In this document: positions 13,691-60,031 of the stretch, piece after piece
How the letters are laid out: every line of letters starts with the position of its first letter
Position numbering within the stretch: position 1 is the stretch's first letter
Assembly: GCF_025698545.1 (NCBI RefSeq)
Contig: NC_068575.1
Location: 57,979,980 to 58,043,979 of the forward strand
Direction of reading: 5' to 3'
Source of the DNA: Gossypium raimondii
Lineage: Eukaryota > Streptophyta > Magnoliopsida > Malvales > Malvaceae
Length of the DNA stretch: 64,000 nt
The notes under the pieces: model-generated
Told to the model about the DNA's origin: nothing
Database searches by the model: none
What the model saw: the letters and a program-made list of their open reading frames with translations, nothing else
Translations under genes and position numbers: made by a program

Positions 13691-14696
13691 ATTTCATAGA
13701 TATAAATAAATATTTATTATTATACCGGATCACACGTTGGGATCTAAGTGCAACATAACATGCAAAGATAACAATAGAAAAAGAAAATAAAAGTGAAAAA
13801 GATTAAACTATGCTATGAATGTCTGTATTATTATAGAATTTTAGATGTAATCCCTATATATTAAAAGCTAATATTTCAATATTTTTAATATTTTTAATTT
13901 AAAATTCTAGTTCAATCGTTATCATCATTGATAATTTCAATAAAAATGTTAACTTAATATGTTTATTCTCAATTAATCATATGTCACTTTACATGATGAC
14001 AGCCTAATCAACATGTTAAATTGATAATCTTTTACGGAAAAATATATATTATTATAATAATTGAATTAAAATTTTAAATTGAAAAAATAATTTACTAAAT
14101 CTCAAAATTTATAGAAGTATTGAAAAAAACAAAACATTCTATTCCCGACACTACACCCTTCACTCCAAACTGCCCTGCTGGCGAGGTTGATGAGTGGTCT
14201 CTTTGTTAAACCTCCTTGATTATTGAATTTCAAACCCCGCACCCTTATTGCGAGAGATCATGTCCAACCTCTGGTTTGGTGTAGTTACCCAACTTTTTAC
14301 CAAATTGAGGCTCCACTTCCCCACTCCCCACATAATGCAAGTAGATAGATTCTTTGACACTATTTCCAGTACCAGTTTCCTAACATTTGCACAAAGGTTA
14401 ACTTCAGTTAAATAAGAATATTTTCGAGAATTGGTCCCCACTAACGCCCAAAACGTCAGAAAAAAGGTGTAGATCTCGTATCAAGTTTTCCTCCTTTTTC
14501 TTTTCGTTTTTTCATTTTAGGAGGAAAAGTAGGAATATAGGGCTCCTGCTCATTGATTAAAAATCATGACATCATTTCCTCCATAGATAACGTTAATTCA
14601 TTTACTAAAAAGAGATGAAATTTTAGTACAAGGGTGAGATTCGATGGTAGAAAATTAAAGCTATCCCAAATGAATTTGATAGACAATGAAATTAGC

Positions 14697-15064
14697 AGAA
14701 AAGTATTATAAAAACTCTTATACTAATAAATTGATTATATTTTACCCCTCCATTCAAGAAATAAATAAATTAGTCACTGTACATTAAATTAAAGGACAAA
14801 TTGATCATTTATGTAAAAATTTTCATTCATTTGTATTGTTAAAAACTAGTGTGTTTGACAAAATAATCAAACAATGACACATGACGACTTATGTATATCT
14901 TATGCTGACATATAAGGACCAATTTTTAATAGAAAAAATGGATGAAATTTTGAATAGGAAGACTCTTGATTTAACATACACGAACTAATTTGCCCATTTT
15001 TTTAGTAGAGAGGATAAAATGTAAATTGACTACTTGCACAAGGACATCCATGATAACTTTTACC
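14697..15064. mobile_element. MITE with ~55-base terminal inverted repeats, copy 1
   Basis: The left end (AAGTATTATAAAAACTCTTA...TATTTTACCCCTCC) is an imperfect inverted copy of the right end (GGATAAAATGTAAATTGACT...TGATAACTTTTACCC). The body has TTGTTAAAAACTAGTG and AAAAAATGGATGAAA, both also present in copy 2 at 18713-19058. Length is about 370 bases with no coding capacity, so it is a non-autonomous DNA element. The superfamily is undetermined because target duplications are not clear. Confidence 0.65.
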
Positions 15065-18420: not shown

Positions 18421-18712
18421 TATAACTCGGCATATGGTTTGAAGAACAATGGCTTCCATCATTTATCAAATGGCAGTCATCAAGGATGATATTTGTTTTA
18501 TAAAACTTAAATACCACCTCTTATTTAAACATTTCTTATAATAATTTGACGATTTTCCTTTTATAATTTTTTTTTCAAATTGAAATCAAAATTAAGGTTA
18601 TTCATAAATCAAACTATTTGATCGAGTGGGATTTTGCATAATGTATTTTTAATTCAAATCAAATTTGTACTAAATAATAAAAATATATTATTATCATAGA
18701 AACAATAAAATA

Positions 18713-19058
18713 GAGTAAAAGTATCATGAAAGCTATCATATTAGGAGTTAAGTTGCATTTTATCCCTTTCACGAAAAATGAGTAAATTAGCCATTATATA
18801 TTAGGTTAAAGAGCAAACTGATTAATTACATTAAAAAATATATTTTATTGTTAAAAACTAGTGCAACTAATAGAATAACCAAACAATTATACGTGACGTG
18901 CTACATATACCTCATTTTAATAATAGAAATGGATGAAACTTTTAAATGGAAGGACCAATTTATTCATTAATTTAACGGATAAATTTACTAATTTTTAATA
19001 GAGGGTAAAATACAATATAACTCTTAATATAATGACCTTTATGCATGCTACTTTTACT
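18713..19058. mobile_element. MITE with terminal inverted repeats, copy 2
   Basis: The left end AGTAAAAGTATCATGAAAG and the right end, read inverted, AGTAAAAGTAGCATGCATAA match over their first 15 bases and more weakly for about 50. Internal blocks TTGTTAAAAACTAGTG and AATGGATGAAACTTTTAAA agree with copy 1 at 14697-15064. About 346 bases, non-coding. Confidence 0.7.
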
Positions 19059-19507: not shown

Positions 19508-19581
19508 TTTTCTGCTGCTATAATCTCACCTCACCTGGTCATCATAAAATAAATAATAATATAAAATAAAACATGAAAAAA

Positions 19582-20649
19582 TTGGGCCATTTACCAATAA
19601 AAGCTTATTTTTTTTTATAAATTTATCGAAATAGGCCCGGTATTTTATTATTAACCAGAATGGATCATTTTTCGGCAAATCACTTCCACGTCAGTGCGAT
19701 GTCAGGGGACGTGCCAGGAAATCGCGGCCACGTCAGCACGCTTTGCTGATGTGGCAACAAATCACGTCCTCGAGGGGGCGATTTGTTGCATTTCCTGACT
19801 TGTAGGTTTTTGTATTTTAGGGTTTAAGATTTTTAGAATTTTTAGGGTTTTGGAGAAAAAAGTAAACAGATAAGTTGCGCCCACGTGTACGCGCTTATTT
19901 ATGGAAACATCTGCCCTTGAATCTACAAATGTTGAGCATGCATTCACTGAAATATTAACTCAAATACATCATGTGATCAGTCGAAAAGCACTCGAAGGAG
20001 GGAATGATCAAACAACATTGTCCAAGGGACAAACCATCAATGTCGGCTCTCGGGATGATGTTTCAGCTGTGAAGAAAGACGGCTGCTGTTAGATGATTCC
20101 GAGTGTCCAAATTTGCTTCCTCATTAAGCACAAACTTTCCTCACCGTGATCTTTCTCGAGATCTTTCGTTGAAGACGAAGAAATCACAGCATTCTAGGGA
20201 TTTTCTTATAGTTTGTTCAGACAGATCTAGTTTTAGCATTTTAAATTATTTTCATTAGTTACGGAGAATAAATTTTAAATTAGCTATCATAATGTTTTGT
20301 ATTTTTAAAGGAGTATTTTATGTAATATAACAAATAAATATGGATAAATTAGGTATTATAAATAATTTAAATAATTTAGTGCAACTATATACATGAAATT
20401 TCATTAGATGGGCAAGTCGCGGCCACGTCAGCGTGATTTGTTGTTGACGTGGCAACAAATCGCCCCTCGAAGACGCGATTTGTTGCCACGTCGAAAGCGC
20501 TACCGACGTGGCGCGATTTCTGATCGTCTCTCGACATAAGCGGCGACGTGGACGCGATTTGCCGGAAAAGGCCATTCCGATAAATAATAAAATACCGGGC
20601 CCATTTCGGTAATTAAAAAAAAAAAGATTTTTTTGGTAAATTGTCCGAA
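19582..20649. mobile_element. TIR element with GC-rich ends carrying a RABA1 gene fragment (Pack-type)
   Basis: The outer parts, about 180 bases each, are inverted copies. Left GGCCCGGTATTTTATTATTA and CGGCAAATCACTTCCACGTC correspond to the inverted right end CGGCAAATCGCGTCCACGTC. Inside the ends are GC-rich blocks with GGCAACAAATCGC and GCGATTTGTTGCC palindromes, very unlike the AT-rich surroundings. Between them lies the end of a RABA1 GTPase coding region (19901-20092). No transposase is present, so it is non-autonomous. Long TIRs plus a host fragment fit a Pack-MULE. However, I could not find a matching 9-base target duplication, so the superfamily is inference. Boundaries are good to a few bases. 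Confidence 0.7.
19901..20092 (+). pseudogene. Captured C-terminal fragment of a RABA1-type small GTPase
   Basis: An open 63-residue frame begins [20 protein letters not shown] and ends [20 protein letters not shown] followed by CC and a stop. This matches the last third of plant RABA1 proteins: the G5 box ETSAL, then alpha-5 and the hypervariable tail. The GTP-binding G1-G4 boxes are absent, so it cannot act as a GTPase. The usual RABA1 tail is GCCSS or similar; here it stops at CC, still a possible geranylgeranylation signal. The fragment lies inside a TIR element (19582-20649) and the sequence upstream shows no Rab similarity, so it was probably captured rather than left by local gene decay. 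The open frame suggests a recent capture or chance. Confidence 0.8.
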
Positions 20650-22379
20650 TTAAACAGCAATTTTTTTTATATACAAAATCAATGAGTAGAAGCAATATCA
20701 AAACATAGCTGGCTGGTGGGGATAGCAAACCCCACTGCTTTCAATCCCTCTCTCTTTCACTTGTTCTTCTTCTTCTTCTTCTTTATTTTTATTTTTATTT
20801 TTATTTAATTTGTTTTTGTTTCATCATTACATACATGTTAGTATCTTTAGTCTTTGTACTATTTTCTCCATAATTTTTGTAATTTGTTTGTTCTTTTATT
20901 TTAAAAAAAATCGTGAATTTTGTGGTGGTTCTGTTCCAGCGAAGATGCTCTGTACAGTACACACCAATAAACCCCCACCCTTCCCTTTCAACTTGCAGTA
21001 GGAGACAACCATTTTATCTTGCTTTACAGCCCACAAATACAAAGGAAAAAAAAACCCAAAAAGGAATTTCACAATTTCAAATCAAAACAAATCAAGAAAC
21101 AATTACTACCCAAAAAAAGGAAGAATTGGGTTCCCTTTTTCTTTTTCTTTTATTTCTTGTTTATATCAAATTTTCTACTCTGCTTGTTCTTCATTATCTT
21201 TATAAAAAGCCCTTTTAGCTTCCCAAGTTTCTCGAATAATTCCAATCAAACGAATAAAAACAGTAGTTTTTTTTTTCTTTACTTTGCTTGCTGTACATAT
21301 ACATATAGTATTAAGTATTGAACCCTGAGGGAAAGCATTGTCGGCGCAGGGTCACTTTCTGTCGGCATTGTCTGTATCCAACGAGGGGTATTCGTTTCTA
21401 AGTTATTCATTCAATTTTTAAATTCAGAACTGAATTTGCATTCCAAAGCTGTCTCTGTGTTGTGTTTTTTTTTCTTTCTCATTTGGTTTCGATGATTTGG
21501 ACCTTCCATCTCGTTTATTAAAAAAAAAAACCAACTACAACTATTCCACCAACTTCATCAACTATTGCTCACCTCGATTCCTCATCACTGCTGTCTCTTT
21601 TTGTCTGCCCTCACCATCCCTTCTTTTTTTTTCACCTTGATTTCACCCATTCGCACTTTATCTTATTCTGGATATCACTCGGTTTCTTCCCCCAAATCGA
21701 GTTTCTTGTTTCTCGCTTCTTTCGATGTGGGAATGCGGGTGATTCTGCTCTTAAAGAGATCAATTTGATTTCTCATTGCCAAATGAATGGGAATACAGGT
21801 TTGAAGTTTCCGACTTTTCTTTTTCCCTTTCATTTTCCGTCAATGTCTCATTATCTTTTTTCTCTGTGATTTGACTTTATAAATAGTACCATTTTTTGAC
21901 GACCAATTGGGTTGTGTATCTGTGATTTATATGTCCACTTACATTCGAATGCCGTCAACTCTATGAAGGGGGGATACAAAATGCTCTGGGTGCTCAAATT
22001 AAATTCCATTTTTGTTTCTGATTTGCAGCATTATTTGGATAATTACGATTGTTGAGCGTTTCCGTACAATGGGTATTCAGTAGTATAGAATTTGAAACGT
22101 TCTAAGCTGAGTTGCTTCTTTGAGATTTTTTAACTTTTAACCAATGCAAAGCATCTTTCTTTTATAACTAGCAACTTGCTTGCCTTATCCACATAATCTA
22201 TATTCTATATAATTGGATCATATGTATTACATTTCATTATATTCACGCTGGCTTTTGTTGTCTGAAATTTGAATGCATATGTTGGTTCTGGATAAAGATT
22301 TATCCGGTCGTCTTGTCTTCTTTATTTCAGGTTAAATGTGTAATAATTTCAATCATAGCTGAAGTAGTTCCAATACCAG
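20650..22379 (+). promoter_or_regulatory. Promoter, 5' UTR and UTR introns of the receptor-like kinase gene
   Basis: This stretch has short tandem runs, (CTT)n at about 20764-20782 and (ATTTTT)n at 20784-20805, then pyrimidine-rich leader-like DNA through 21770. A branch/acceptor TTTATTTCAG ends at 22330, 50 bases before the kinase ATG, so the 5' UTR is probably split. Coding frames here are low-complexity (Phe/Ser/Lys-rich) and are not believed to be genes. A transcription start between 20900 and 21700 is likely but not fixed. Confidence 0.4.
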
Positions 22380-33179: not shown

Positions 33180-33375
33180 TCATGTTTACTTTCTGTTTAG
33201 TTCTCATGAGCTTCAGTTAATTCATATGAGTTTCAGTTTAACCTTATTGGGTTTCCGTTTAGCTCTTTTGAGCTTCAGCTTAACCCTTATGGGTTCTGTT
33301 CAGCTCTTATGAGCTTCCGTTCAACCCTTATGGGTTTCTGTTTAGCACTTGTGTGCTTCTGTACAGCCTTCGGGC
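33180..33375. repeat. Alternating short tandem repeats inside the solo LTR
   Basis: Units of about 20-24 bases alternate between AGCTCTTATGAGCTTC and AACCCTTATGGGTTTC types, joined by TGTTTAG/CGTTCA linkers, for roughly eight units. Each unit is itself palindromic (GAGCTC-like or CCC...GGG-like arms), so the RNA or single strand would form a row of small hairpins. Confidence 0.65.
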
Positions 33376-34650: not shown

Positions 34651-36700
34651 TCCATGATAAGATCTACACCTCCATAATTTCTACAATTTATGACATTGGC
34701 CAGGACCAAAAGATTAAAAGAATAAATATATATAATACCAAAATATATATAAAAAGAAAAAGAAAAATAAACCACAAGAACATATCAAGTGTTTCAATAG
34801 TTTTCTAATAGAAAAAGAGTGCTCCAATAATTCAATAACTTTCACTTTCTTTAAAAAATTCCAATAATTTTAGGGAAAATAAATCTGTTGTGCATACCTA
34901 TTTATCCCTTTATAAAAGAAAATCATTACTAAACAGGTTGGATATGTAGAAGGTTTTCTAGTCAATTAGAATTCACATAATAATTTTATAATTCAAATTT
35001 ATGTTGTTATAATCAAATTTCATGTTAAAATAACATTATAAAATAAGACTAATATATCATATTTTAGTCCAATATATATATTTGATAAAAATTATATAGT
35101 TGAATACACAAAATAATTGTGTTAAATTTTAGTATTTAAATTTTAGTTTTAAAGTGATTTGATGAAAATTAATTGCTAATATTAGTATATTTGAGTTTTA
35201 TGATTTTATTAATAGAATAAATTTAGTGTTAATTGTGCATTTTCTAGTTTTGTATTTAATTTGTCAAATTTAGTTCGATGTATGTGATTTAATTACGATT
35301 TTAGGATTGATTTGACGAAAGTTAATTGAGCCAATTATGAATTTTCATGAAATCAATTCTAAAATTCAAATTAAACACTAAAAAAGTAACATTGTTACCT
35401 TTAAGTACAAAATGTATAACCAAAAAATAACACAGATATTGTATTAATTTTTTGTCAAATTTAGGTATCAGTATTAAACCTATCAAATATCTAAATTTAA
35501 TGAATCAAAATTTAAATAATAAATATGATTAAATTTACATTTTTTCTTTTAATCTTTTCATATAAAAATGTAAATAGAACAATTAGAAATCACAATATAA
35601 AATAAATCAAATGTTAAATGAATTTTTCTGTAAATATATTTTTATATGATTTTTAACATAATCTAGTATTATATAAATAACTATCTCTCACTATAAAGAA
35701 TTGGTTAAAATACCTCTCTAGTCCTTCCCAATTTTGATATTGAGTAAATCCGTTTTCTCTAAAAAAATAGAGTAGTTTAATCCTGTCAATTTTAAAATGA
35801 GCAACTAAGAATAATTAATCACAACATCAATGTTTTCATTAATTGTACGTAATTTTGATTAGTATAATAACAAATTTAGCCCTAGATGCTTATATATTTC
35901 GTGTAAATGTTAATAATATATGTAAATGTCATAGGCTACATTTATTAAACCAAGATCAAATTGACAAAATACGTAAATATTATGAGCTAAATTTGTTAAA
36001 TCAAGATCAAATTGATAGAATGTATAAATTTTAAAAGACTAAACTTATCGGATGAATTAAGAAAAAGAATATTAAATCAAAGACTAATTGCTGACTTTAT
36101 ATGAAGTAAAATGCTGAAGGGGTGGAGAGATTTTTTGTGAAAGAAATTAAAATCACAGAATAATAAAAATTGAAACTCATAAACTGAAGAAGGGGAGTGA
36201 GTGTTATTGATCATCCGTGTCTCTGCATGGCATATTGGCACGTGATTGAGGTGTGGAGAGAGACGTCACAAACAAGAAAAAAAAATAAAAAAGGTAATGT
36301 AAGAAAGAATCCCGTTCCTCACGCCGGCTATGTTTGTCTTCTTGTTCCCCCTCTTTAATCTCACCGGCCAATCTCTCTTCTTGTTTCAATCTTCGTTTGA
36401 ATTATTTTTATATATTTGTTTTCAATGGTTTTCTTAAAGTTAAAAACACTAACAAACAAAAAGTAAGAAAGGAAGAAAATTTGGTTTTCAAAGATGAAAC
36501 CTTGACCCATTTTGGCTCCAATGAACAATGAAGCCCTTGCCTTTCATTTCATTTTCACTTGTGGTGTACCTCTCTGACACTTCTCATTTTTTTTACATTT
36601 CACCCCATTAGTAGTTTCTGTGAAATTCTTGCCGGCAATCTCTTTCATCTTTCTTTATTCGTTACGTTCTAATCTGTAACAACGGAACCCCAAAAAAACA
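34651..36700. other. AT-rich spacer and promoter of the RPK2-like gene
   Basis: 34650-35690 is AT-rich without a gene. 35700-36110 looks like a degenerate MITE-like repeat, opening GGTTAAAATACCTCTCTAGT and containing a tandem repeat (35930-36030). 36180-36700 is GC-richer and pyrimidine-rich on the plus strand, and holds the promoter and leader of the receptor kinase starting at 36701. Confidence 0.45.
35925..36030. repeat. Tandem repeat of ~53 bases, two units
   Basis: Two adjacent units share the blocks TTTATTAAACCAAGATCAAATTGA (quoted as AAGATCAAATTGA) and AAATTGTTAAATCAAGATCA, each followed by a TAAAT-containing linker. A weaker third unit may precede them. Probably part of a worn interspersed element. 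Confidence 0.55.
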
Positions 36701-39700
36701 ATGGCATTTCTCTGGTTTTTGCTCTTTTCTTTCAGCTTCACACTCTCAAAATCCTCCACTCCCGACTCTGCTATTCTTCTGAGCTTCAAAGACTCCATTT
36801 TTTATGACCCTTCAAACCTTTTATCCACTTGGAACTCTTCTTCAAGTCACTGCTCATGGTATGGTGTCAAATGCGCTAACTCCTCTGATAAAGTGATAGC
36901 TTTGTCGCTTCCCCACAATGGGCTTTCCGGGGAGATCCCTGGTGTTATTGGAGACCTTAAGTTTTTGCAGGTTCTCCAAGTCCAAGGCAACAAATTTTCC
37001 GGCCAGATTCCGGTCCAGATAAGCTCTATCTCTTCTCTCAATGTTCTCAACTTGTCTTTCAACTCGTTTTCCGGTCATATACCAGATAAACTCATCGGTA
37101 ACAGCAACTTGAAAGTTATCGACTTGTCCAATAATCTGTTTTCTGGTAGGATTAGCGTTGATAATTCTAGCAGGTGTGAGTTTTTGACTCATTTGAGCCT
37201 GTCTAATAACTCTCTTGTTGGCAATATACCCCCTGAGATTGGAAATTGCAAAAACTTGAGGACTTTGTTGCTTGATTACAACCTTTTAGAAGGCAAGATT
37301 CCAGCTGAAATAGGCCAAATTACTGAGCTTCGGGTTCTAGATGTTTCTAGGAACAGTCTCACTGATGAAATTCCAAAGGAGATAGCAGACTGTAAGAAAT
37401 TATCAGCTCTTGTGCTAACCAATTTGATAGATTTCGGTTCTGATGCGAAAACAAGTTACATGGATGGTTTTCGAGGAGAATTCAATGCATTCGACCTCGG
37501 TGTTCCTTTTGAACTATTTTCCCATTCTAGTTTGGAGGTCTTGTGGGCGCCAAGAGCCAATCTTCGAGGGCGGTTGCCCGCTAAATGGAGTGAGTTTTGC
37601 TCACTCAGGGTCCTAAATTTGGGGCAGAATTACTTTGATGGTATGATACCAGAAAGCATTGTGATGTGCAAGAGCCTTACTTTCTTGGATTTGAGTTCCA
37701 ATAATTTGTTTGGGTACCTTCCTTGGAAGCTAAATGTTCCTTGTATGACATACTTTAACATTAGTAGGAATAATATTTCTGGTAATATTCATGGATACAA
37801 CAGGAAAGGCAGCTGTGATGGTTCCATGGTTTCTCAAGTTCTAGCGTCTAGTTCCACATGGGTTGAATTCAAGTATGGTAATCTTCCTTTTTGGGGTTCT
37901 AAGATGGGGTTGATGATGGATGAGAGTTTTGCAGTAGTCCATGATCTAAGCTGGAATAGTTTCACTGGCTCGATACCGGTGTTCTTCATCGCAGATCAGT
38001 TATTGGCTAGTGATAGTAAATTTTCATACAGGTTGCTACTGAATAATAACATGTTCAACGGTTCTTCTCATAAGGAGCTAATATCTGATTGTGATAAGCT
38101 GCAGAGTGTCTCGGTTAACTTGAATGAAAACAAGATAGTAGGTGGGATGGGGAAGACCTTTTTTCTTGATTGTGTACGGCTAATAGAGTTTGAAGCAGCA
38201 TATAATCAGATTGAGGGATCCATAGATCCTTGTATTGGCAACTTGACGATGCTTGAATGGCTAGACCTTAGAGGAAATAGACTCTCTGGATCTTTGCCAA
38301 ATCAGTTGGGGAAGTTGAAGAACCTGACATGGATATCTCTTGGAGAGAACAACTTAAGTGGAGAAATTCCACCCGAACTCGGTCAATTGGCATTGCTTAA
38401 GGTTCTTGATCTTTCCCACAATTTTCTTACAGGATCCATCCCTGCTAGCCTAACAAATGCTGGAAATCTTGAAACCATTTTACTCGACCACAATCGGCTT
38501 TATGGGGAAATACCCCCATCTTTCTCTTTGCTTTCTCATCTGACTGTTTTGGACCTTTCTTTTAATGACCTTTCCGGTTCGATACCAAGACTCCAGCATC
38601 AGACTAATTGCAGTTCCTTTAGAGGTAATAGACTTTTGCAGGAGTGTTTATTTTCTGCGGTACCCCCGGGCGGGCCTAGGGGTCCATCTAAATTTCAGAA
38701 AGGGAGGAATTCGGAACCTCTCATAATTGCAGCCATAACTTCTGCTTTTGTTCTGCTTTGTATGGTTGCAGTGGTTGTAATTATCTGTCGATTTAGAAGG
38801 AAAAAGGTTAGAAGACTTGGTGCTCTTGAAGAAAAAGTGGTGGTGACTTTTGCTGATGCTCCAAATGAGCTGAATTATGATAATGTAGTTAGTGCTACAG
38901 GTAACTTTAGTACCCGAAACCTCATTGGTATGGGTGGATTTGGATCAACGTACAAAGCAGAGTTGGTCCCAGGCTATCATGTAGCTGTAAAGAAGCTTTA
39001 TATTGGTCGATTTCAAGGTGTTCAGCAATTTGATGCAGAGATAAGAACACTAGGAAGAATTCGACATAAGAACCTTGTAACTCTTATTGGATATTATGTT
39101 GGGGAAAATGAAATGTTTTTAATTTACAATTACCTTTCTGGTGGAAACCTTGAGACTTTCATTCATGACAAGTCCGGAAAAAACGAACAGTGGTTAGTTA
39201 TCTACAATATAACAGTGGATATAGCTCAGGCTCTTGCTTACCTCCATTACTCGTGTGTTCCCCGGATAGTTCATCGAGACATCAAGCCAAGCAACATTCT
39301 GCTTGATGAAAATCTTAATGCCTTCCTCTCGGACTTTGGGTTGGCTAGGCTTTTAGAAGTTTCGGAGACCCATGCCACCACAGATGTTGCTGGCACATTT
39401 GGTTATGTAGCACCAGAATATGCAACAACATGCCGGGTCTCCGACAAGGCAGATGTGTACAGTTTTGGTGTTGTAATGTTAGAATTGCTGTCAGGAAAGA
39501 AGTCCCTTGATCCATCATTTTCCGAGTATGGAAATGGATTCAACATTGTTGAATGGACCAAGTTGTTGGTCAAGGAAGGGCGTCCTTCAGCGGTGTTCTC
39601 TGCTCAATTGTGGGAAACTGGACCTAGGGAGAATCTCTTGGGAATGCTTAGGCTTGCATATGCCTGTACAGCGGAGACACTTTCTGTTCGGCCATCAATG

Positions 39701-39739
39701 AAGCAAGTTCTTGAAAAATTAAAGCATTTGAAAAACTGA
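36701..39739 (+). CDS. LRR receptor-like kinase, RPK2 (TOADSTOOL2) type
   Basis: A single exon of 1012 residues. Residues 1-18 are a signal peptide (MAFLWFLLFSFSFTLSKS). An LRRNT region with the paired-Cys pattern HCSWYGVKC follows, then about 20 plant-type LRRs (LxxLxxLxLxxNxLSGxIP). Between them are island-like irregular stretches around residues 230-290 and 360-410. The membrane span lies at about 672-694 (LIIAAITSAFVLLCMVAVVV). The kinase has GMGGFGSTYKAE (from about 740), VAVKKL, HRDIKPSNILL (about 858), SDFGLAR, GTFGYVAPEYA and DVYSFGVVMLELLSGKKSLD, so catalytic motifs are intact. RPK2 acts with CLV1/CLV2 pathways in meristem, anther and embryo development. Arabidopsis RPK2 is about 1150 residues, so this member has a shorter ectodomain and may be a separate subclade. 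Ligand is unknown. Two possible 3' UTR introns lie downstream. Confidence 0.93.
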   Translation: MAFLWFLLFSFSFTLSKSSTPDSAILLSFKDSIFYDPSNLLSTWNSSSSHCSWYGVKCANSSDKVIALSLPHNGLSGEIPGVIGDLKFLQVLQVQGNKFSGQIPVQISSISSLNVLNLSFNSFSGHIPDKLIGNSNLKVIDLSNNLFSGRISVDNSSRCEFLTHLSLSNNSLVGNIPPEIGNCKNLRTLLLDYNLLEGKIPAEIGQITELRVLDVSRNSLTDEIPKEIADCKKLSALVLTNLIDFGSDAKTSYMDGFRGEFNAFDLGVPFELFSHSSLEVLWAPRANLRGRLPAKWSEFCSLRVLNLGQNYFDGMIPESIVMCKSLTFLDLSSNNLFGYLPWKLNVPCMTYFNISRNNISGNIHGYNRKGSCDGSMVSQVLASSSTWVEFKYGNLPFWGSKMGLMMDESFAVVHDLSWNSFTGSIPVFFIADQLLASDSKFSYRLLLNNNMFNGSSHKELISDCDKLQSVSVNLNENKIVGGMGKTFFLDCVRLIEFEAAYNQIEGSIDPCIGNLTMLEWLDLRGNRLSGSLPNQLGKLKNLTWISLGENNLSGEIPPELGQLALLKVLDLSHNFLTGSIPASLTNAGNLETILLDHNRLYGEIPPSFSLLSHLTVLDLSFNDLSGSIPRLQHQTNCSSFRGNRLLQECLFSAVPPGGPRGPSKFQKGRNSEPLIIAAITSAFVLLCMVAVVVIICRFRRKKVRRLGALEEKVVVTFADAPNELNYDNVVSATGNFSTRNLIGMGGFGSTYKAELVPGYHVAVKKLYIGRFQGVQQFDAEIRTLGRIRHKNLVTLIGYYVGENEMFLIYNYLSGGNLETFIHDKSGKNEQWLVIYNITVDIAQALAYLHYSCVPRIVHRDIKPSNILLDENLNAFLSDFGLARLLEVSETHATTDVAGTFGYVAPEYATTCRVSDKADVYSFGVVMLELLSGKKSLDPSFSEYGNGFNIVEWTKLLVKEGRPSAVFSAQLWETGPRENLLGMLRLAYACTAETLSVRPSMKQVLEKLKHLKN

Positions 39740-46014: not shown

Positions 46015-47213
46015 CTGCATGTGCAAACAGAAAACCAGTACGAAATTGAATGCAACTGAGGAAAACCATTGAACCATTAAAAATAAAAGCAGTACACCCA
46101 AATAAGAATCACCATCAGAACAATTCATAAGACTGCTTAATTAGGCAAAGCACAACCAATCCACTGCCTTTAAATGCAAATATACACAGAAAAAAATATA
46201 TCAGGAAAAAAATTTTAAGCATGTTAAAAACAAAATTCTAATTTGGTTTCTGCTTTGCATAATAAGGGACCCCTACTGCTTTCAACCAATAATAATCCAC
46301 CAGAAAAGGAGCTTCACAACCATAGCAGCAGGCACAACACATAATCTGAAGAAAGCAGTACACCCACATGTTAATCAACTTTGAATTAGAACAATTCATA
46401 AGATTGTTTAATCAGACAAAGCACAACACATCCACTGCTTTTAAATGCATATATACACAAAAAGGTGCATCAGAAAACAAATCTTAAGCATGTTAGAAAA
46501 GTAAATGTTAAAGTAATATTGTAAATAAAAAAGATCTGAATTCTGCTTTGCGAAATAAGGAACCCCAATTGCTTTCAACCAATAATAATATGCCAGAAAA
46601 GGAGCTTCACGACCACAGCAGAAGGCACAGCATCTAATCCGAAGAAACAGTCCGCCTGCCTCGCAAATTAACCAAAAGAGGAAAATTGATTCTAATTTTT
46701 TTCTACTCAGTCTTACTAGTCAAAACATGAGCCGGATCCAAATGAAGTAAGTACAGCAATAAAGCTAAGCAAGTTGAAAATTTTCCCTTTACACCAAGTA
46801 TTTACTCAACTAAATATTTGCAATTCGATTTAACAGAGCATTCAGTGTGCAGCATATAGTAAACAATGGAAGATATAGAAACTTTATCCACAATAAAATA
46901 ACTAACAACGGCAGTAATCCAATACAGGGCAACAACAACAACAACAAAAAGAACACCTTTATAAAATTCAAACAATTACACTTTAAATTAAAATAATCAG
47001 CAAGCACCCAACAAAAAAAATGGCCCGGAGTCAGACAAAGAAGACACATGAATAACAAAAACACATTGAATCAACAAACAGAGCAAAAAAGAAAAAACTA
47101 ACTGCCGAGTCTTGAAGAGGAGATATATTGAAATAAAGGAAACCCTTTTTTGTAAATAACAAAACAATCAAATCCGAAAGCGATTTCTTATGAAAGAAGC
47201 AAAAAAGAAGTAC
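46015..47213 (-). other. 5' UTR intron of the NFRKB-like gene
   Basis: A donor CCAAG|GTACTT at 47213 and an acceptor CACATGCAG ending at 46015 define a 1.2-kb intron placed 39 bases before the ATG. The first, untranslated exon would lie at about 47214-47500, where the coding strand is pyrimidine-rich (CTCTCT runs). It contains the duplication at 46087-46651. Splicing is inferred from sequence only. Confidence 0.5.
46087..46651. repeat. Head-to-tail duplication of ~266 bases in the 5' UTR intron
   Basis: Unit 1 starts AAGCAGTACACCCAAATAAG at 46087 and unit 2 starts AAGCAGTACACCCACATGTT at 46353. Both then share AGAACAATTCATAAGA, ATCCACTGC, TTTAAATGCA, TTAAGCATGTTA, GCTTTCAACCAATAATAAT, CCAGAAAAGGAGCTTCAC and GGCACA in the same order. 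Divergence is moderate and unit 2 carries a short extra AT-rich stretch, so the duplication is not recent. Confidence 0.85.
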
Positions 47214-49319: not shown

Positions 49320-50430
49320 AATTGAATTTGTGTATAATTGTTTGTAATTACATAAGAATGATATATTAGTGGGTCCTATCGAATTGTGTGTAATTGAAGC
49401 ACCCAATTACACTTTCAATTTCTTAGAGCGAGAATGAGAATTGGAGTAATTACACCAAAATCTAATTTTTAAAATTTTTTATACAAATTATAATAATTAC
49501 ATTATAAGTATGAACATGTATGGTGTTTATGATAGTTTTGACAAAAATGTATTATAAATCTTAAAAATTATATTATAAAAATAATTTGTGTATTTTATAA
49601 AGTTATGACTGAAAATTTTATTATAAAAGTTATGACTAAGAAGTATGGACATAATTTATTTGTGTCCATACTATATATTATAAAAATAATATATTTATTC
49701 ATAAAAATGTTATAGTTTTTTATCATAACTTATTTATAAAAATATCTTTCTAGAGTTATGACAAAAATTTATATTATTTATAAGTGTTGTGAAAATTTTG
49801 AACAATTTATAAAATATTTTTCTATAAAGGTTATATATTGTAAATTTTATTTTATTTTTACTTAATTTACGTTATTATGAAAAGCGATATAACCTAGCAT
49901 ATATATTTTTCAAATTAAATTTATATAAGTTTTTACAATTGAAGTTTCAAATTATTTGGACTGTGAATCCAAATATTTTAATGTTGATACTAATAATGCA
50001 AATATAAAAGATTTTTTGTATCATATCGTGAGGTATAATATCATTTGAGAGAAGGATATCGATATAAATCTTAATGATCTTAATTACACAAACTCAAATT
50101 CAAATGACGATGAACTTCGGTTAATGACCAAAGATATGATGATAATGAACATATGTTAAATATTAAAGAGAAAATAACCCAACAAATACAAACTAGCACA
50201 TTTGGATAAAATTACATATGATGTTTATTTTTTGTTATTTTTATTAGTAATACATATGGTGATTTGACTTTTATTTTGTTAATTATTTAAAAATTATTTT
50301 TATCATACTGATATTTTTATAACATTTAAAATATCAATTATATAATTATATAATTACGCTCTATCAACCAATCAGAATATTGCTAATTCTTTATAATTAT
50401 AAAAAAGTGTAATGGTTGAATTATTTTGTG
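49320..50430 (+). mobile_element. Decayed PIF/Harbinger-related DNA element, copy A
   Basis: 49860-50260 is collinear with 57660-58260 (copy B), sharing CTAATAATGCAAATA-type and CATATGTTAAAT..TAAAGAG blocks followed by AACCCAACAA and ATAAAATT(A/G)CATAT. In frame it reads NVDTNNANIKDF, a faint trace of the Harbinger DDE transposase segment VVDAGYPNTKGF. Outer regions contain TGTAATTAC-rich sequence on both sides, possibly the ends. Heavily degenerate and not coding. Confidence 0.5.
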
Positions 50431-53087: not shown

Positions 53088-54896
53088 TTAACCGATAAGC
53101 AGTTTGCTCTCATCCAAGAAGGTGTAAGTGGGTACTTCCAGGTTGTATGGTGCTGGACCCTTGCGAATCCTGCCAGAGACATCATAATGGGAACCATGGC
53201 AAGGGCAAAACCATCCACCATAATCACCAGCATTTGGCAAGGGAATGCAACCCAGATGTGTGCAAACCCCAACAACAATTAACCACTCTGGATTCTTAAC
53301 CCTTGCTGCATCCTCCTGTGGATCACGAAGAGACCCTAGATCAACACTGTTTGCTAACTTGATATCCTCATCAGTTCGGCGCCTGATGAAGACTGGCTTT
53401 CCACGCCACTTAACAGTTACAGTGCTGCCAGGTTCAATGCTGGAGAGATCAACCTCGAGAGAAGCCAGTGCAAGAACATCCTTACTGGCTGACATGCTCA
53501 GGACAAGCTTGAGGATGAGCAGACGGATAACAGATGCGTAAACAAACCTACCACCTGTCAGGACAAAATAGGCAAATGCCCGCTTGCTGGGGTCACCAGG
53601 AGGAAAACGTTCATGGTTGTATTCATCATAAACTATTTTAGAACTGGGGTTCTTAATAGCAGCCACTGTTGCTGGAACATCAGGAATCACACTGTGGTCA
53701 CTTTTTGGGGTGAGTGACTCAGAAGCAAAACCTGAAGCAAACATTACAAGCATATCTTTAGTTAATAAGCACAAAATAGAAAAACAACTTTTTTCAGCAT
53801 TTTAGTATTTGAATTTCAGGAAAGGAGGAATATTGAATGGAAAATATCATTTCATGCCATGGAATTGGAAAGGTACAGGCAACAAGCACCATTTGGGTAA
53901 AGAAATCCAAGAGTCAAGCCTCCATTGCACATGGCTTTGTAAATACTGGTGCTCAAAAGGAAAAAATAAAAAGGCTTCATAACCAGTAGGTTTCACTTCT
54001 CAATTCTCATTCATAATACAGGATCATAACCAGTTTCAGACAGTATTTATGTTTCCAAACAAAATAGGAATAGCGAGCCACTAAATAAGGACCAACAGAT
54101 AATATCAAGCATTAACCCTAATCTTGTACATTTGAAAGATGCTCTAACACAGGTCTCTCTCACATAACTTACTAAAGAAACACTACAACTGATGAATCCT
54201 CTGTTGATCAAAGGCAATATGCTGTAGACAGAAGCGAAAAAACCATAGCTACCAAATTAGACCAACAAAGACACCTTTCAATCCTTCTTCTTTTTCTTTT
54301 TTTTTTTTTTTGGGGGGGGGTCATAGAGAGATGCCTTGCCCCAAACATCAAATTCTTTTTTCACCTTAAAAAATGGGTGCCTAAATTAGCTAAATCTATA
54401 ACCTTTAAGACCATATTTTGATCCAATTGTACTATATTTTAAATAATTGGAGCGATTTCCTAAATTCCATAAGAGTGGTAAGCAACTTCGATTAATTCAC
54501 ACATCCAAATCAATAAAACGAACAAAAGTAAGAAATAAAAATTTTCAAAATGATGCAAAGTAAAGCATGTATTATCAATTAGAATTTGAATATGAAAACG
54601 GTGTCACAGCGAAAACCTAACCAATAATAGTATTTGATATGACCGCCATATTAGGACGAAAAAGTGAAACAAAGCGGAGAAAATTTGAAAAGCAAAAGGA
54701 AACCCTAACCTCTGGTGGGAAGAAGGAATTGAGAAGCGAAAGAGAAGGAAAATGAGGAGGAGGAGAAATTGGATCTGAGACAATCAGAAGAATCGGAGCC
54801 GTCGATGAAAGGACGAGAGGCGATAGCGGAGGTGGCCTGGTGCGACCTCCACGCAGACGAACAAGAAGTGAGCCGCCTCGTTGCCACTCTCAACAT
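53088..54896 (-). CDS. UCR1: Mitochondrial Rieske iron-sulfur protein of complex III
   Basis: Two exons, 54710-54896 and 53088-53731, joined in phase 1, give 276 residues. The protein is the Rieske [2Fe-2S] subunit of the cytochrome bc1 complex, passing electrons from ubiquinol to cytochrome c1. Residues 1-60 are an Arg/Ser-rich mitochondrial presequence ([18 protein letters not shown]). A membrane anchor follows at about 107-140 ([20 protein letters not shown]), then the soluble domain. Cluster ligands lie in CTHLGC (219-224) and CPCHGSH (238-244), and [10 protein letters not shown] is the conserved Pro loop. The mitochondrial presequence and the [20 protein letters not shown] region separate it from the plastid PetC. 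All key residues are present. Arabidopsis counterparts are At5g13430 and At5g13440 from memory. Confidence 0.96.
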
Positions 54897-55463
54897 CTTA
54901 GATTTGATTGGATTCACAAAGAGAGAGAGCGCTTTGTTTCTTCGGTTTTTACCTTCAAGACTCTTCCAATTAGCTCGGGAAATCGAGAGGAAAAGTAGAG
55001 ATATGATTTGTTTAATCTGTAAAATAATAAAAATAAAAAAACTCTGTATGTGGGTTTTACTCTCTCGCTTTTTAATTGAATAGTTAGTATTTAATATATT
55101 TTTAGCTGGGGAAAAACTAATATATCTAAATATCTTTATTTTTATTTTTATTTTTATATATAGAGGATTTCTTATATAAATTTTAAAAATATTTAAAGTA
55201 ATAATTTGTGTTAATGGAAATTTCAACTATTATACTTAATTTTGAAATTGAATACTTTATTTTAATTTGGAATGTTTTTTAATTTCATAACTTCAATTAT
55301 TTATCCAAATAATTACCATATTAATTATTGTGATTAAAATGTTTATATTATTATCAAATAAATAATCAAATTTTTATATATACTTAATTTTATATATGTA
55401 TTATTATATTTAAAGAATATATGTAAGACAATTTTGAAATAATTTTAATTTCAATTAAAATTA
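54897..55463. other. Rieske gene leader and promoter, then AT-rich spacer
   Basis: 54897-55085 is the leader and proximal promoter of the leftward Rieske gene. 55090-55463 is AT-rich and ends in TTAAAATTA (55455-55463), the left target duplication of the Mutator-like element. Confidence 0.5.
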
Positions 55464-56987
55464 GGGTAAACTACAAAAATAGTCACTTTTGTTTGCCTCA
55501 GATTACATTTTAGTCACTTATGTTTGAATTGTTACGTTTTAGCCACTTATGTTATTATTTTGTTACAAAGTGGTCACTATTCCGTTAAGTTCTGTTATCT
55601 CCCTAACGGTAATCCTACGTGGCAGTCCAACTAGATTTCTAGTGCCAACTTAGATTTCCTAATGAGATGAGAATAGATTTTTATTTAAATAAATTTAATT
55701 AATTAAAATTTTTAAACCCTAAATCTTAGTTAAAAAACCGTTCATCTCCCCCATTTTTTTAGTTTTCTTTTTTTAGTTTTCAACACTAATTTAATCCCAG
55801 TAGATGGCTCAGGAATTCCTAGCTTCTCAAGGGAAACCGCTTCCCATATATCATCCAATATCACCACAAATCTACTCTTCCGAGACAATGTTTCAAACAG
55901 CATCCGTGCCCTTCTTGTTTCACATTGTCACCACAAAAAGTTACTTTAATTTGACTTGCAATGGCCATCTGTAGCTTAGCAATACTCATCTCCTTGGATG
56001 CAGTGATCCAAATCACAATATCGAACTTCTCCCTCTCTTGTAAGCGTTGATTGTTTATAAGTTTCATGATGCTTGTTTTCCCCACACCACCCATCCCCCA
56101 AACTCCAATCTTTCCAACCTCATCATCCATCAAGCACTTCCAAATCTCTTCCATACAGACCTTTCTACCTTCACCTGATAATCTTGTTGTCGACAAAACC
56201 TATCCAATCCATTGAGGATTGTCAACTACCAAATCTTCTTGAAATTTGCCTTGCTGAATAAGTTCCTCAACTTCTCTTGTCCTCTTTAACACATCGTCTG
56301 CATGAAATCCACGTGTAAGAGTAATGCTTTCACCAATTCGTTCATTAAGGTTTTGAACTTCGCCATTGATTCTTTCAACGTTTTCTAACCATATCTGGAC
56401 CTCCCTCTTGAGTTTCTTTCTTGGCTGCTGCTCTGCTTTCATTCTAGAATTTATATCTTCCTTCACACCATTCAATTCCATTACTTTCCTTTTCAGGTCA
56501 TTCATATGCTGATTAAGGCTTCTGTTATTGTCCCAGTGTTTATCAATCTTATTCAGAGCAAATTCCATGGCTGTAAGTTAAGAGTACTGCATAACATGTA
56601 ATATGTTAGAAACTAAATAATAATGCATGGTCAGTTGTGTGTATCTAACCATGGCTAAAAAATAACTTTCTTAGTCATCTGAAAAAGAAAACTAAAAAAA
56701 AAGGAGATGAACGGTTTTTTAATTAAGATTTAGGGTTTGAAATTTTTAATTAATTAAATTTATTTAATTAAAAATCTATTCTCATCCCATTAGGAAATCC
56801 AATTTGGCACTTAAAATCTAGTTAGACTGCCACGTAGGATTACCGTTGGGAGATAACGGAACTTAACGGAAGAGTGACCACTTCGTAACAAAATAATAAC
56901 ATAAGTGACTAAGACGTAACATTTTAAACATAAGTAACTAAAATGTAACCTGAGGCAAACAAAAGTGACTATTTTTGTAGTTTACCC
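55464..56987. mobile_element. Pack-MULE: Mutator-like element carrying a CC-NBS resistance-gene fragment
   Basis: The element has inverted ends of about 290 bases (55464-55752 and 56700-56987), opening GGGTAAACTACAAAAATAGT on both sides. It is flanked by TTAAAATTA (55455-55463) and TTAAAACTA (56988-56996), a 9-base duplication with one mismatch, the size made by Mutator transposases. The 950 bases between the ends contain no transposase but a piece of a coiled-coil NBS disease-resistance gene on the minus strand. That combination is the definition of a Pack-MULE. The TIRs are still very alike, so insertion is not ancient. The element would need a transposase supplied elsewhere. Confidence 0.88.
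55786..56568 (-). pseudogene. Captured fragment of a CC-NBS-LRR disease-resistance gene
   Basis: From the ATG at 56566-56568 the frame gives a coiled-coil domain (KIDKHWDNNRSLNQHMNDLK, EVQIWLENVERINGEVQNLN), then TTRLSGEGRKVCMEEIWKCL and the P-loop GVWGMGGVGKTSIMKLI (about 56050-56105). RNBS-A follows as FDIVIWITASKEMSIAKLQ. A further piece in a shifted frame holds kinase-2 FVVILDDIWEAVSLEKLGIP (about 55820-55872) and runs out near 55786. The frame has one stop (TAG at 56200-56202) and one shift near 55917. GLPL, MHD and all LRRs are absent. The parent is an RPS2/RPS5-like CNL gene, not in this window. It is a captured fragment within the element at 55464-56987, not a working receptor. It could still yield a small RNA or decoy transcript, which is conjecture. 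Confidence 0.85.
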
Positions 56988-57139
56988 TTAAAACTATAAA
57001 TTAAAAAAAATAAAAACAATCAATTAAATTTCATTAAATATTTAATCCAAATATTTGTTAATAGTAAAATTTATTATAAAATTAAATACATGAATATTAT
57101 ATTTTAATTAATAAAATAAATTCATAAATTATTATTACA

Positions 57140-58520
57140 TTCTTGGAAAAGAATTTAGTGAACCAAACGTAATAATATAACTTTTCCGAGATTGTAAATG
57201 AACATTGGAATCCTAAAACATATTAAACTTCTTATTATAATGGGCATCTACTTTATAATAATAAAATATTTATAACATTTGCTATTGGATGTTCGTTAAT
57301 TGATAATGTGCCTCCTTAAAACTTTGCTAAGATAAAACATATGGGAAAATTTTGTAGTGAAGGAAAAAAGTACAAACATATATAACACGTGTAGTTACTT
57401 CATTCATGATAACATCGCATAATATCTTATATTTTACGTATTTCAACATTGAATACTGACTTTCCAAATGATCACTTGAATGAATTTGATAAACGTTTAT
57501 GTCATCATTCTTCTGAAACTCACGAGTAACGAAGAATTTTGATAAATATATTTTGATCTCTTCGGAAGTCCCAATAACAATCATAACAAACTTTGATCAT
57601 TATGTCTTTGGAAGTCACAATATCTTTTTTATAAACATTATATATATTATAAATTTTATTATATTATTTTTATCTAATTTACATATTATGAAAATAGTTA
57701 TGATATAACATAAGTCTTTGTCTAAATTATATATAATCAAAATTATAGTTTGTTTACGTCATGAACCCAAATATCTTGTGGTAAATACTAATTATGCAAA
57801 TACAAAAACAAGAGGTTTTTTCTCGACTATATCGAAGGGTACAATTGCTTTGAGAGAATTGAGTCAAATACAAGCACTAAATATAGGTTGTGAATTCTTT
57901 AATTTGAAACATTCAAAAATTCAAAATGTGATTGAGAGAATATTTGTTGTTTTAATTTTTTTCCATAATACTAAAATCATATCTCATGCAAAGATAAAAA
58001 TAAGTTTAGATCATACTAGCATGTTGCATATTTTATAACTTCATTGTAGGAGGAATTGGAATGATCCATGCTTTGAAAAATATATGAAAGAATGAAAATT
58101 TGATAATATTAATGATATAGATTTAGATTCGATGATAAATAACTCCGTTAAAACCCAACATATGATTACAAGGAGTATATGTTAAATGCTAAAGAGGTAA
58201 TAGCCCAACAATGGAATGATAGAACACTTAGATAAAATTGCATATAATGTTTATCTTTCGTGTTATTTTTTATTAGTCGTATTATCGACTACTTTCTTGT
58301 ACTAACATATTACATGTGATGATCTAATTTTATTTTGAATTTTTGTTACTTATTTAGAAATTTTATTGTACTAACATTTTAACAATATAAATTATGTAAC
58401 TATGTGATCACAATTTGTACTACCAAATATGTTATAGAAAATTATAAAGTAATTATACTCTGTCAACTACACAGAGAAATTACACTTACTCTGTGATGTC
58501 AAAACAGTGTCTAATGTTTT
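57140..58520 (+). mobile_element. Decayed PIF/Harbinger transposon, copy B
   Basis: A broken frame at 57760-58040 reads KYLVVNTNYANTKTRGFF and later FFNLKHSKIQNVIERIFVVL and SMLHIL. These correspond to the C-terminal part of PIF/Harbinger DDE transposases (VVDAGYPNTKGF, FNxxHxxLRNVIERxFGVLK, LHNFI), including the final Glu of the catalytic triad in NVIER. The preceding DDE part is not recognisable. The 3' part is collinear with copy A at 49320-50430. Right-end DNA near 58440-58500 has GTAATTATACTCTGTCAAC/AAATTACACTTACTCTG, perhaps a worn end. Non-functional, boundaries rough. Confidence 0.55.
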
Positions 58521-59410: not shown

Positions 59411-60031
59411 ATGCAGTCAGCAGCAGCAGCAGCAGCAGCAACTCTCAGCATTGCACCACCCCTTATTCCTAATCTCTCACCCTCCAAAGCCTTCTCCCCA
59501 AGGCTTGGCAGCTCCATTGGTTCCCCTCGGCGCGGCCTTCCAATCAAAGCAACCGCCACCACCTACGACACTTCCATGGTTGACTACAGCTCTATGCTCT
59601 CGTAAGTCTTTTTTTTCTAGTTGAAAGTTGTGTTGTTTCATTTGACACGAAAGCTTTTAACTAATTTTGGCTCGTGGGGCATGCATTCATGCAGTGTGTT
59701 TCCAGCAGAGGCGTGTGAGACAATCGGCGGAGATGCATGCCGGGCAGACATATACCCTGAAGTAAAGCTACAACCGGAGGCCAGAAACAACTCCCCGAGG
59801 ACCACAACAGAGTTGATGGACAGAGAATATCTGGAATACAATGATGCCAAAACGTATTAATTACTTTCTCAACAAACTATAACCCAAATCTCGTATTCTA
59901 TTTCTTTATACAAATTAAGTTATGAAAGCTGTTTCATTTCCATATGTAAATGCAGGGTTTTCTGTGCTGAGGCGTGCGATGATTTGGGCGGAGAATTCTG
60001 TAGCCGAGAGTATCAAAGGGGAGTGTATTAG
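59411..60031 (+). CDS. LIR1: Light-regulated protein LIR1, plastid
   Basis: Three exons, 59411-59601, 59695-59853 and 59956-60031, give 141 residues, all GT-AG with phase 2 junctions. The transit peptide starts MQSAAAAAAATLSIAPPLIP, the Ala run being coded by a (CAG)n-like repeat. The mature part has two related motifs, VFPAEACETIGGDAC and VFCAEACDDLGGEFC, separated by YPEVKLQPEARNN and REYLEYNDAKT. It ends SREYQRGVY. LIR1 strengthens binding of ferredoxin-NADP reductase to the thylakoid tethers TIC62 and TROL and is degraded in the light. The second motif has Cys where relatives have Pro (VFPAEAC). It matches Arabidopsis At3g26740 (CCL), which sits next to ICE1 there as here. No defect was seen. 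Confidence 0.94.

Follow-up and report, generated by a model that had tools for sequence, protein, structure and literature searches.

Transposable elements that carry pieces of host genes have been described in both plants and animals. Mutator-like elements (MULEs) commonly possess terminal inverted repeats (TIRs) of hundreds of base pairs and generate target-site duplications of 8–11 bp, according to sections of PMC6446971. Pack-MULEs, which hold a host-gene fragment between such TIRs, number over 3,000 in rice, as passages of PMC4858842 and PMC4583175 report. In animals, the related Pack-TIR elements show microhomology at one or both breakpoints in 190 of 281 cases (67.6%), and a template-switch route is described in the portion of PMC8277862 drawn on here. 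At positions 55464–56987 of a 64-kb window of the Gossypium raimondii genome (the whole stretch analysed: contig NC_068575.1, 57,979,980 to 58,043,979, forward strand), a 1,524-bp unit bounded by long TIRs encloses part of a coiled-coil (CC), NB-ARC, leucine-rich repeat (LRR) immune-receptor gene (CNL). This unit is most probably a Pack-MULE, and the origin and possible regulatory significance of its cargo are considered below; all positions are those of the window.

CNL-type sequences also have a place in small-RNA biology, which is of relevance to any transposon that carries them. In cotton, P-loop sequences are targets of the microRNA (miRNA) miR482, which sets off the production of phased small interfering RNAs (phasiRNAs), as stated in parts of PMC3877274. 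A review points out that non-coding transcripts derived from nucleotide-binding leucine-rich repeat (NLR) genes may template phasiRNAs, and passages of it treat target mimics as a speculation (PMC10575705).

Structure of the unit and its cargo

The left TIR (55464–55772, plus strand) is 309 bp long and begins GGGTAAACTAC, while the right TIR (56682–56987, minus strand) is 306 bp long; a preliminary description of this DNA had put the inverted ends at about 290 bases, which is slightly short. Aligned over 309 columns, the arms are identical at 285 of 306 aligned bases, with 3 gap columns. The mismatches comprise 14 transitions and 7 transversions, corresponding to a Kimura two-parameter distance of 0.072, a value to be read with the proviso that divergence between the arms may predate insertion. 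The alignment by which the TIRs were found, which included some flank, scored 500, the highest score among 300 first-order-Markov resampled pairs being 38. Outward of the TIRs no likeness above chance was detected between the flanks, shuffles being as good in 179 of 1,000 local and 371 of 1,000 end-anchored comparisons, and the similarity therefore ends at about 55464 and about 56987. A larger inverted repeat, suggested by a self-comparison of the window with blast that reached 55342 and 57120, was rejected, as the flanks alone are at shuffle level. In each arm, four subrepeats follow one another at ~30-bp intervals, each centred on (A/G)GTCACT or a one-base variant of it; these could be binding sites for a transposase.

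Immediately outside the TIRs lie two 9-bp sequences, TTAAAATTA (55455–55463) and TTAAAACTA (56988–56996), that match at eight of nine positions. This 8-of-9 target duplication, already pointed out in the preliminary description, thus holds at the exact TIR edges, where 90 of 20,000 flank shuffles equal it; with the test loosened to any length of 8–11 bp and at most one mismatch, 334 of 20,000 succeed. As the duplication sits outside both arms, the two TIRs appear to have been inserted together. This bears on the reading of the locus as a native, decayed CNL pseudogene flanked by chance by two separate, oppositely oriented copies of a MULE or of a miniature inverted-repeat transposable element. 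CNL pseudogenes are common in plants; however, one 9-bp near-duplication is common to both outer edges, the arms are nearly equal in length and have the same inner end bases, and no other CNL sequence was found in the window, where all tblastn matches outside the element have E-values of 0.82 or worse. A chance arrangement of this kind is accordingly extremely improbable.

Between the TIRs lies the captured segment (55773–56681, minus strand, 909 bp). Its GC content is 38%, compared with 29% for the TIRs and 16% and 20% for the very AT-rich flanks. The first part of an NB-ARC domain, with the P-loop GMGGVGKT, occupies 55912–56157 (minus strand) and matches positions 4–86 of the 248-position Pfam profile PF00931 (E 1.7e-16). 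The domain continues in another frame at 55763–55918 (minus strand; profile 87–139 of 248, E 4.7e-09), where the kinase-2 sequence ILDDIW is found within the kinase-2-like RFVVILDDIW, and ends KLVL, with its final 10 bases overlapping the left TIR. Profile positions 4–139 are thus continuous across the frameshift, and both Pfam and the alignment to the best PDB sequence match, the NB-ARC protein 9h2l (E 2.4e-06 for the first part and 6.1e-05 for the second), halt at about the inner TIR edge. There, KLVLKT pairs with KLILTS of 9h2l, a place which we take to be the RNBS-B motif. NCBIfam matches to the two frames were disregarded, all being far under their cut-offs. The truncated end of the NB-ARC domain directly adjoins the TIR, so that what is found is not an intact CNL gene with CC, NB-ARC and LRR regions: the NB-ARC domain stops at profile position 139 of 248, and the coding sequence is broken by one stop and one frameshift.

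Upstream of the NB-ARC part, an N-terminal reading frame that starts MEFALNKIDKHW (56203–56568, minus strand) runs for 122 amino acids from its ATG to an in-frame TAG at 56200–56202, and is coil-like. No match to Rx_N was found in it with Pfam at E-values up to 1, a search that returned 16 families, all below their cut-offs and including a PUMA coiled-coil family. A PDB search of this piece gave eight weak matches (E 0.056 or worse), one to a protein named as a coiled coil and two to JIP3, likewise a coiled-coil protein. The CC label is therefore weakly grounded, deriving mainly from the position of the piece ahead of the NB-ARC domain. Of the CNL features named in the preliminary description, the P-loop and kinase-2 are well founded, whereas the coiled coil is weakly backed. 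Elsewhere, a 20-bp stretch at 58302–58321 is 95% identical to a sequence within the captured segment, in its upstream part (E 0.014); the match is taken as chance.

A transposase domain was absent from 11 of 11 open reading frames (ORFs) of at least 50 amino acids in the element, three minus-strand core ORFs having been scanned at E-values up to 1 and the eight others at up to 0.1. The absence of a transposase, also part of the preliminary description, thus stands for ORFs of this size; sub-cut-off Pfam matches of the element's ORFs were disregarded. Rfam gave nothing at gathering scores over 54000–58000, and a tRNA scan found none.

Identity and origin of the element

The unit combines long TIRs, a target duplication within the 8–11-bp range, the lack of a transposase among its ORFs of at least 50 amino acids, and an NB-ARC fragment of host-gene type. 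We put the probability of its being a Pack-MULE (a non-autonomous Mutator-like element) at roughly 0.86, whichever of capture and insertion came first. The structural reading in the preliminary description, of a MULE-like unit that is non-autonomous and has captured a piece of a CNL gene, is hence upheld to the extent that features visible at one locus allow.

Several points weigh against this identification. One of the nine positions of the target duplication is mismatched and the surrounding DNA is AT-rich, so the support lent by this duplication is good but not overwhelming. By pattern, the window contains no second copy of the TIR, its blastn matches being of at most 21 bp with E-values of 0.19 or worse, and searching the window yielded no parent CNL gene. 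Moreover, GGGTAAACTAC could not be linked to a known MULE family, its literature matches being non-plant by title (coronaviruses, haemodialysis patients and a probiotic). The TIR type may be one that occurs in cotton and its kin. Searches of viral contigs and prokaryotic genomes for the TIR patterns gave 0 matches, as expected of such collections; a protein search of the viral contigs for the NB-ARC piece found two stretches that fit the pattern, neither of which is a relative.

At its inner edge, the left TIR may preserve a trace of how the gene piece was acquired. A perfect 14-bp tandem duplication, TTTTTTTAGTTTTC in two copies (55754–55781), spans the junction between this TIR and the captured segment, as would fit a template switch of the kind described for animal Pack-TIRs in PMC8277862. 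In addition, GAAAACT, found on the minus strand where the gene piece terminates, recurs at the inner end of both TIR arms, and because it is common to all three, a short-homology template switch at the left inner junction is plausible.

On this basis, the DNA between the TIRs of a MULE would have been replaced, probably through template-switching repair synthesis, by ~0.9 kb from the 5′ portion of a CNL gene, comprising some upstream sequence, the coil-like region and the NB-ARC domain to slightly past its half. The unit would then most likely have been mobilised by a transposase supplied in trans, and inserted between the Rieske and LIR1 genes with a 9-bp duplication. The one stop and one frameshift may reflect decay of the fragment afterwards, or the source may already have been a pseudogene. 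This copy is most likely without function.

The order of events could also have been reversed: a MULE already residing between Rieske and LIR1 might have gained its CNL piece in place by gap filling, in which case the CNL-bearing unit never transposed. Such an element would still be a Pack-MULE and differ in order alone. In-place capture is given as the explanation for most single-copy Pack-TIRs in animals in parts of PMC8277862, and accords with the one copy seen in the window that was searched. An identical target duplication would be expected from it, and at one locus it has the same look as capture before insertion, relatives being needed to tell the two orders apart. We consider it possible, though distinctly the less likely course, and favour capture followed by transposition of the CNL-bearing Pack-MULE.

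Small-RNA and miRNA readings of the captured fragment

Inverted repeats around NLR sequence invite the idea, advanced as conjecture in the preliminary description, that the unit seeds small RNAs directed at CNL genes. As worded, this is not supported by the predicted fold of a read-through transcript. On the plus strand, 290 of 309 left-arm bases are predicted to pair with the right arm, and on the minus strand 295 of 306 first-arm bases with the other arm, giving a hairpin with a TIR/TIR stem and the CNL piece in the loop. Small interfering RNAs (siRNAs) from such a hairpin would accordingly match the TIR family and not CNL genes. For CNL-directed siRNAs to arise, the two TIRs would have to drive convergent transcription, or a miRNA would have to trigger RDR6 activity.

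A possible point of entry for the latter is the stretch encoding the P-loop (56076–56097, minus strand), which is complementary to miR472-type miRNAs with a mismatch at miRNA position 11. Against Salix miR472 it scores 1.5, with 20 Watson–Crick pairs and one G:U among 22 positions, and against jute miR472a it scores 2.5. Pairing is poor with cotton miR482a (5.0), cotton miR482b (4.5) and jute miR482b (4.5), and the two cotton forms were rejected as regulators of this copy on these scores. No place in the 64-kb window scores better than the site for any of the five miRNAs. All five were tried with sequences from publications, the miR472 type being chosen after the site had been seen.

How far this pairing exceeds what any P-loop would offer was gauged with a synonymous-coding control, in which seven residues allow 2,048 codings. 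Codings as good or better numbered 44 for Salix miR472 and 320 for jute miR472a, while for the three miR482 forms 1,481 to 1,868 reached the score of the site. On this control, the site stands out modestly with one miRNA form and not with the others. The target rules stated in parts of PMC3877274 require that the score not exceed 3.5 and that positions 10–11 be free of mismatches; the site falls outside them with every form, since the miR472 types score 1.5 and 2.5 but carry the position-11 mismatch, and the miR482 types score 4.5–5.0. The same source, in the part consulted, holds that the reported ghr-miR472 is actually ghr-miR482a, so that the host may or may not possess the better-pairing miR472 type.

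A regulatory reading can be assembled from these observations, in which the element is expressed and influences CNL genes, either through convergent TIR transcripts or through recognition of the P-loop by miRNAs of the miR472/482 type, as a source of small RNAs or as a target mimic. It is compatible with identity as a Pack-MULE, and would draw on the low scores with the two miR472 forms, the window-best standing of the site for all five miRNAs, and the precedents of cotton miR482 and of NLR-derived phasiRNA templates in passages of PMC3877274 and PMC10575705. Nevertheless, P-loop codings are generally alike, as the control illustrates, the miR482 forms lie beyond the 3.5 limit, position 11 is mismatched, the miR472 type was picked post hoc from five, and the hairpin stem is TIR and not CNL. 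Taken together, this makes regulation of CNL genes by the unit very unlikely. Its more specific version, that the truncated CNL of the Pack-MULE, with its almost complete miR472-type site and central mismatch, might serve as a transposon-borne target mimic or phasiRNA template for a CNL-repressing miRNA, has to be regarded as a still more distant prospect; if true, CNL levels would be adjusted by whether, or in how many copies, such insertions are present. The miR472-like P-loop site may be kept as a modest candidate lead, derived from sequence alone.

Genomic setting and comparison with known systems

The Rieske and LIR1 genes diverge, and the element occupies part of the DNA between them; its distance to the start codon is 568 bp for Rieske and 2,424 bp for LIR1. 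The Rieske gene runs leftward on the minus strand, with its ATG put at 54896 by the reading frame MLRVATRR, which would be the first Rieske exon, linked to the frame that holds the Rieske domain. LIR1 runs rightward on the plus strand from an ATG picked by frame reading at 59411, and two of its frames match Pfam Lir1, one just under the cut-off (E 8.7e-05) and one clearly (E 1.5e-24). The CNL sense strand has the same direction as Rieske. Domain matches of both neighbours confirm what had been described beforehand, a fragment antisense to the plus strand between these two genes.

A second, more diverged inverted-repeat element is found at 19580–20651, with arms at 19580–19789 and 20452–20651 that are 78% identical over 213 columns. 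Between these arms, a frame with a stop codon at 19901–20092 has a PDB match to plant RABA1a, in the C-terminal region of that protein (E 1.2e-07), and scores 15.2 bits against Pfam Ras, below the cut-off of 21.6. Three near-matches were noted for its target duplication, where at least one also arises in 153 of 300 shuffles. It is probably another Pack-type TIR element, with a putative RABA-type Rab GTPase fragment. With two such elements in 64 kb, the capture of gene pieces seems not to be rare in this genome.

Other features of the window include a ~300-bp tandem direct duplication at 46086–46651 (75% identical), and dispersed direct copies of ~135 bp at 50117–50248 and 58144–58277 (77% identical, AT-rich), perhaps remnants of one repeat family. 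A ~280-bp dispersed direct repeat occupies 14683–14961 and 18702–18952 (67% identical), and a tandem array with periods of 21, 42 and 62 bp lies at 33191–33362. At 36680–39739, a single frame of 1,019 amino acids combines leucine-rich repeats with a protein kinase domain and encodes an LRR receptor-like kinase.

The element type is already well known, and this locus is a further example of it; alone, it overturns no established view. It offers one clear instance in which a fragment of an immune receptor is carried by a transposon and the junctions can be read, and a possible example for the question of how often MULEs move NLR pieces. In the portions of the literature covered, no Pack-MULE was met that is described as holding part of a CNL gene, a result that makes no claim that none is in print.

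In comparison with NLR-derived phasiRNA loci such as tomato TAS5, treated in passages of PMC10575705, the unit shares an NLR sequence that keeps a miRNA-like P-loop site, whereas here the site is centrally mismatched, lies inside a transposon and is known from its letters only. With Pack-TYPE and Pack-TIR elements it has in common a gene fragment between TIRs and a possible microhomology junction. Among transposon superfamilies, TIR length and the 9-bp duplication point to a Mutator-like element as opposed to hAT, CACTA or others. The closest likeness is to the Pack-MULEs, with which the unit shares long TIRs, a 9-bp target duplication, no transposase found, an internal host-gene fragment and a location near genes, and from which it differs in its AT-rich setting around a core of 38% GC and in its cargo, a CNL piece.
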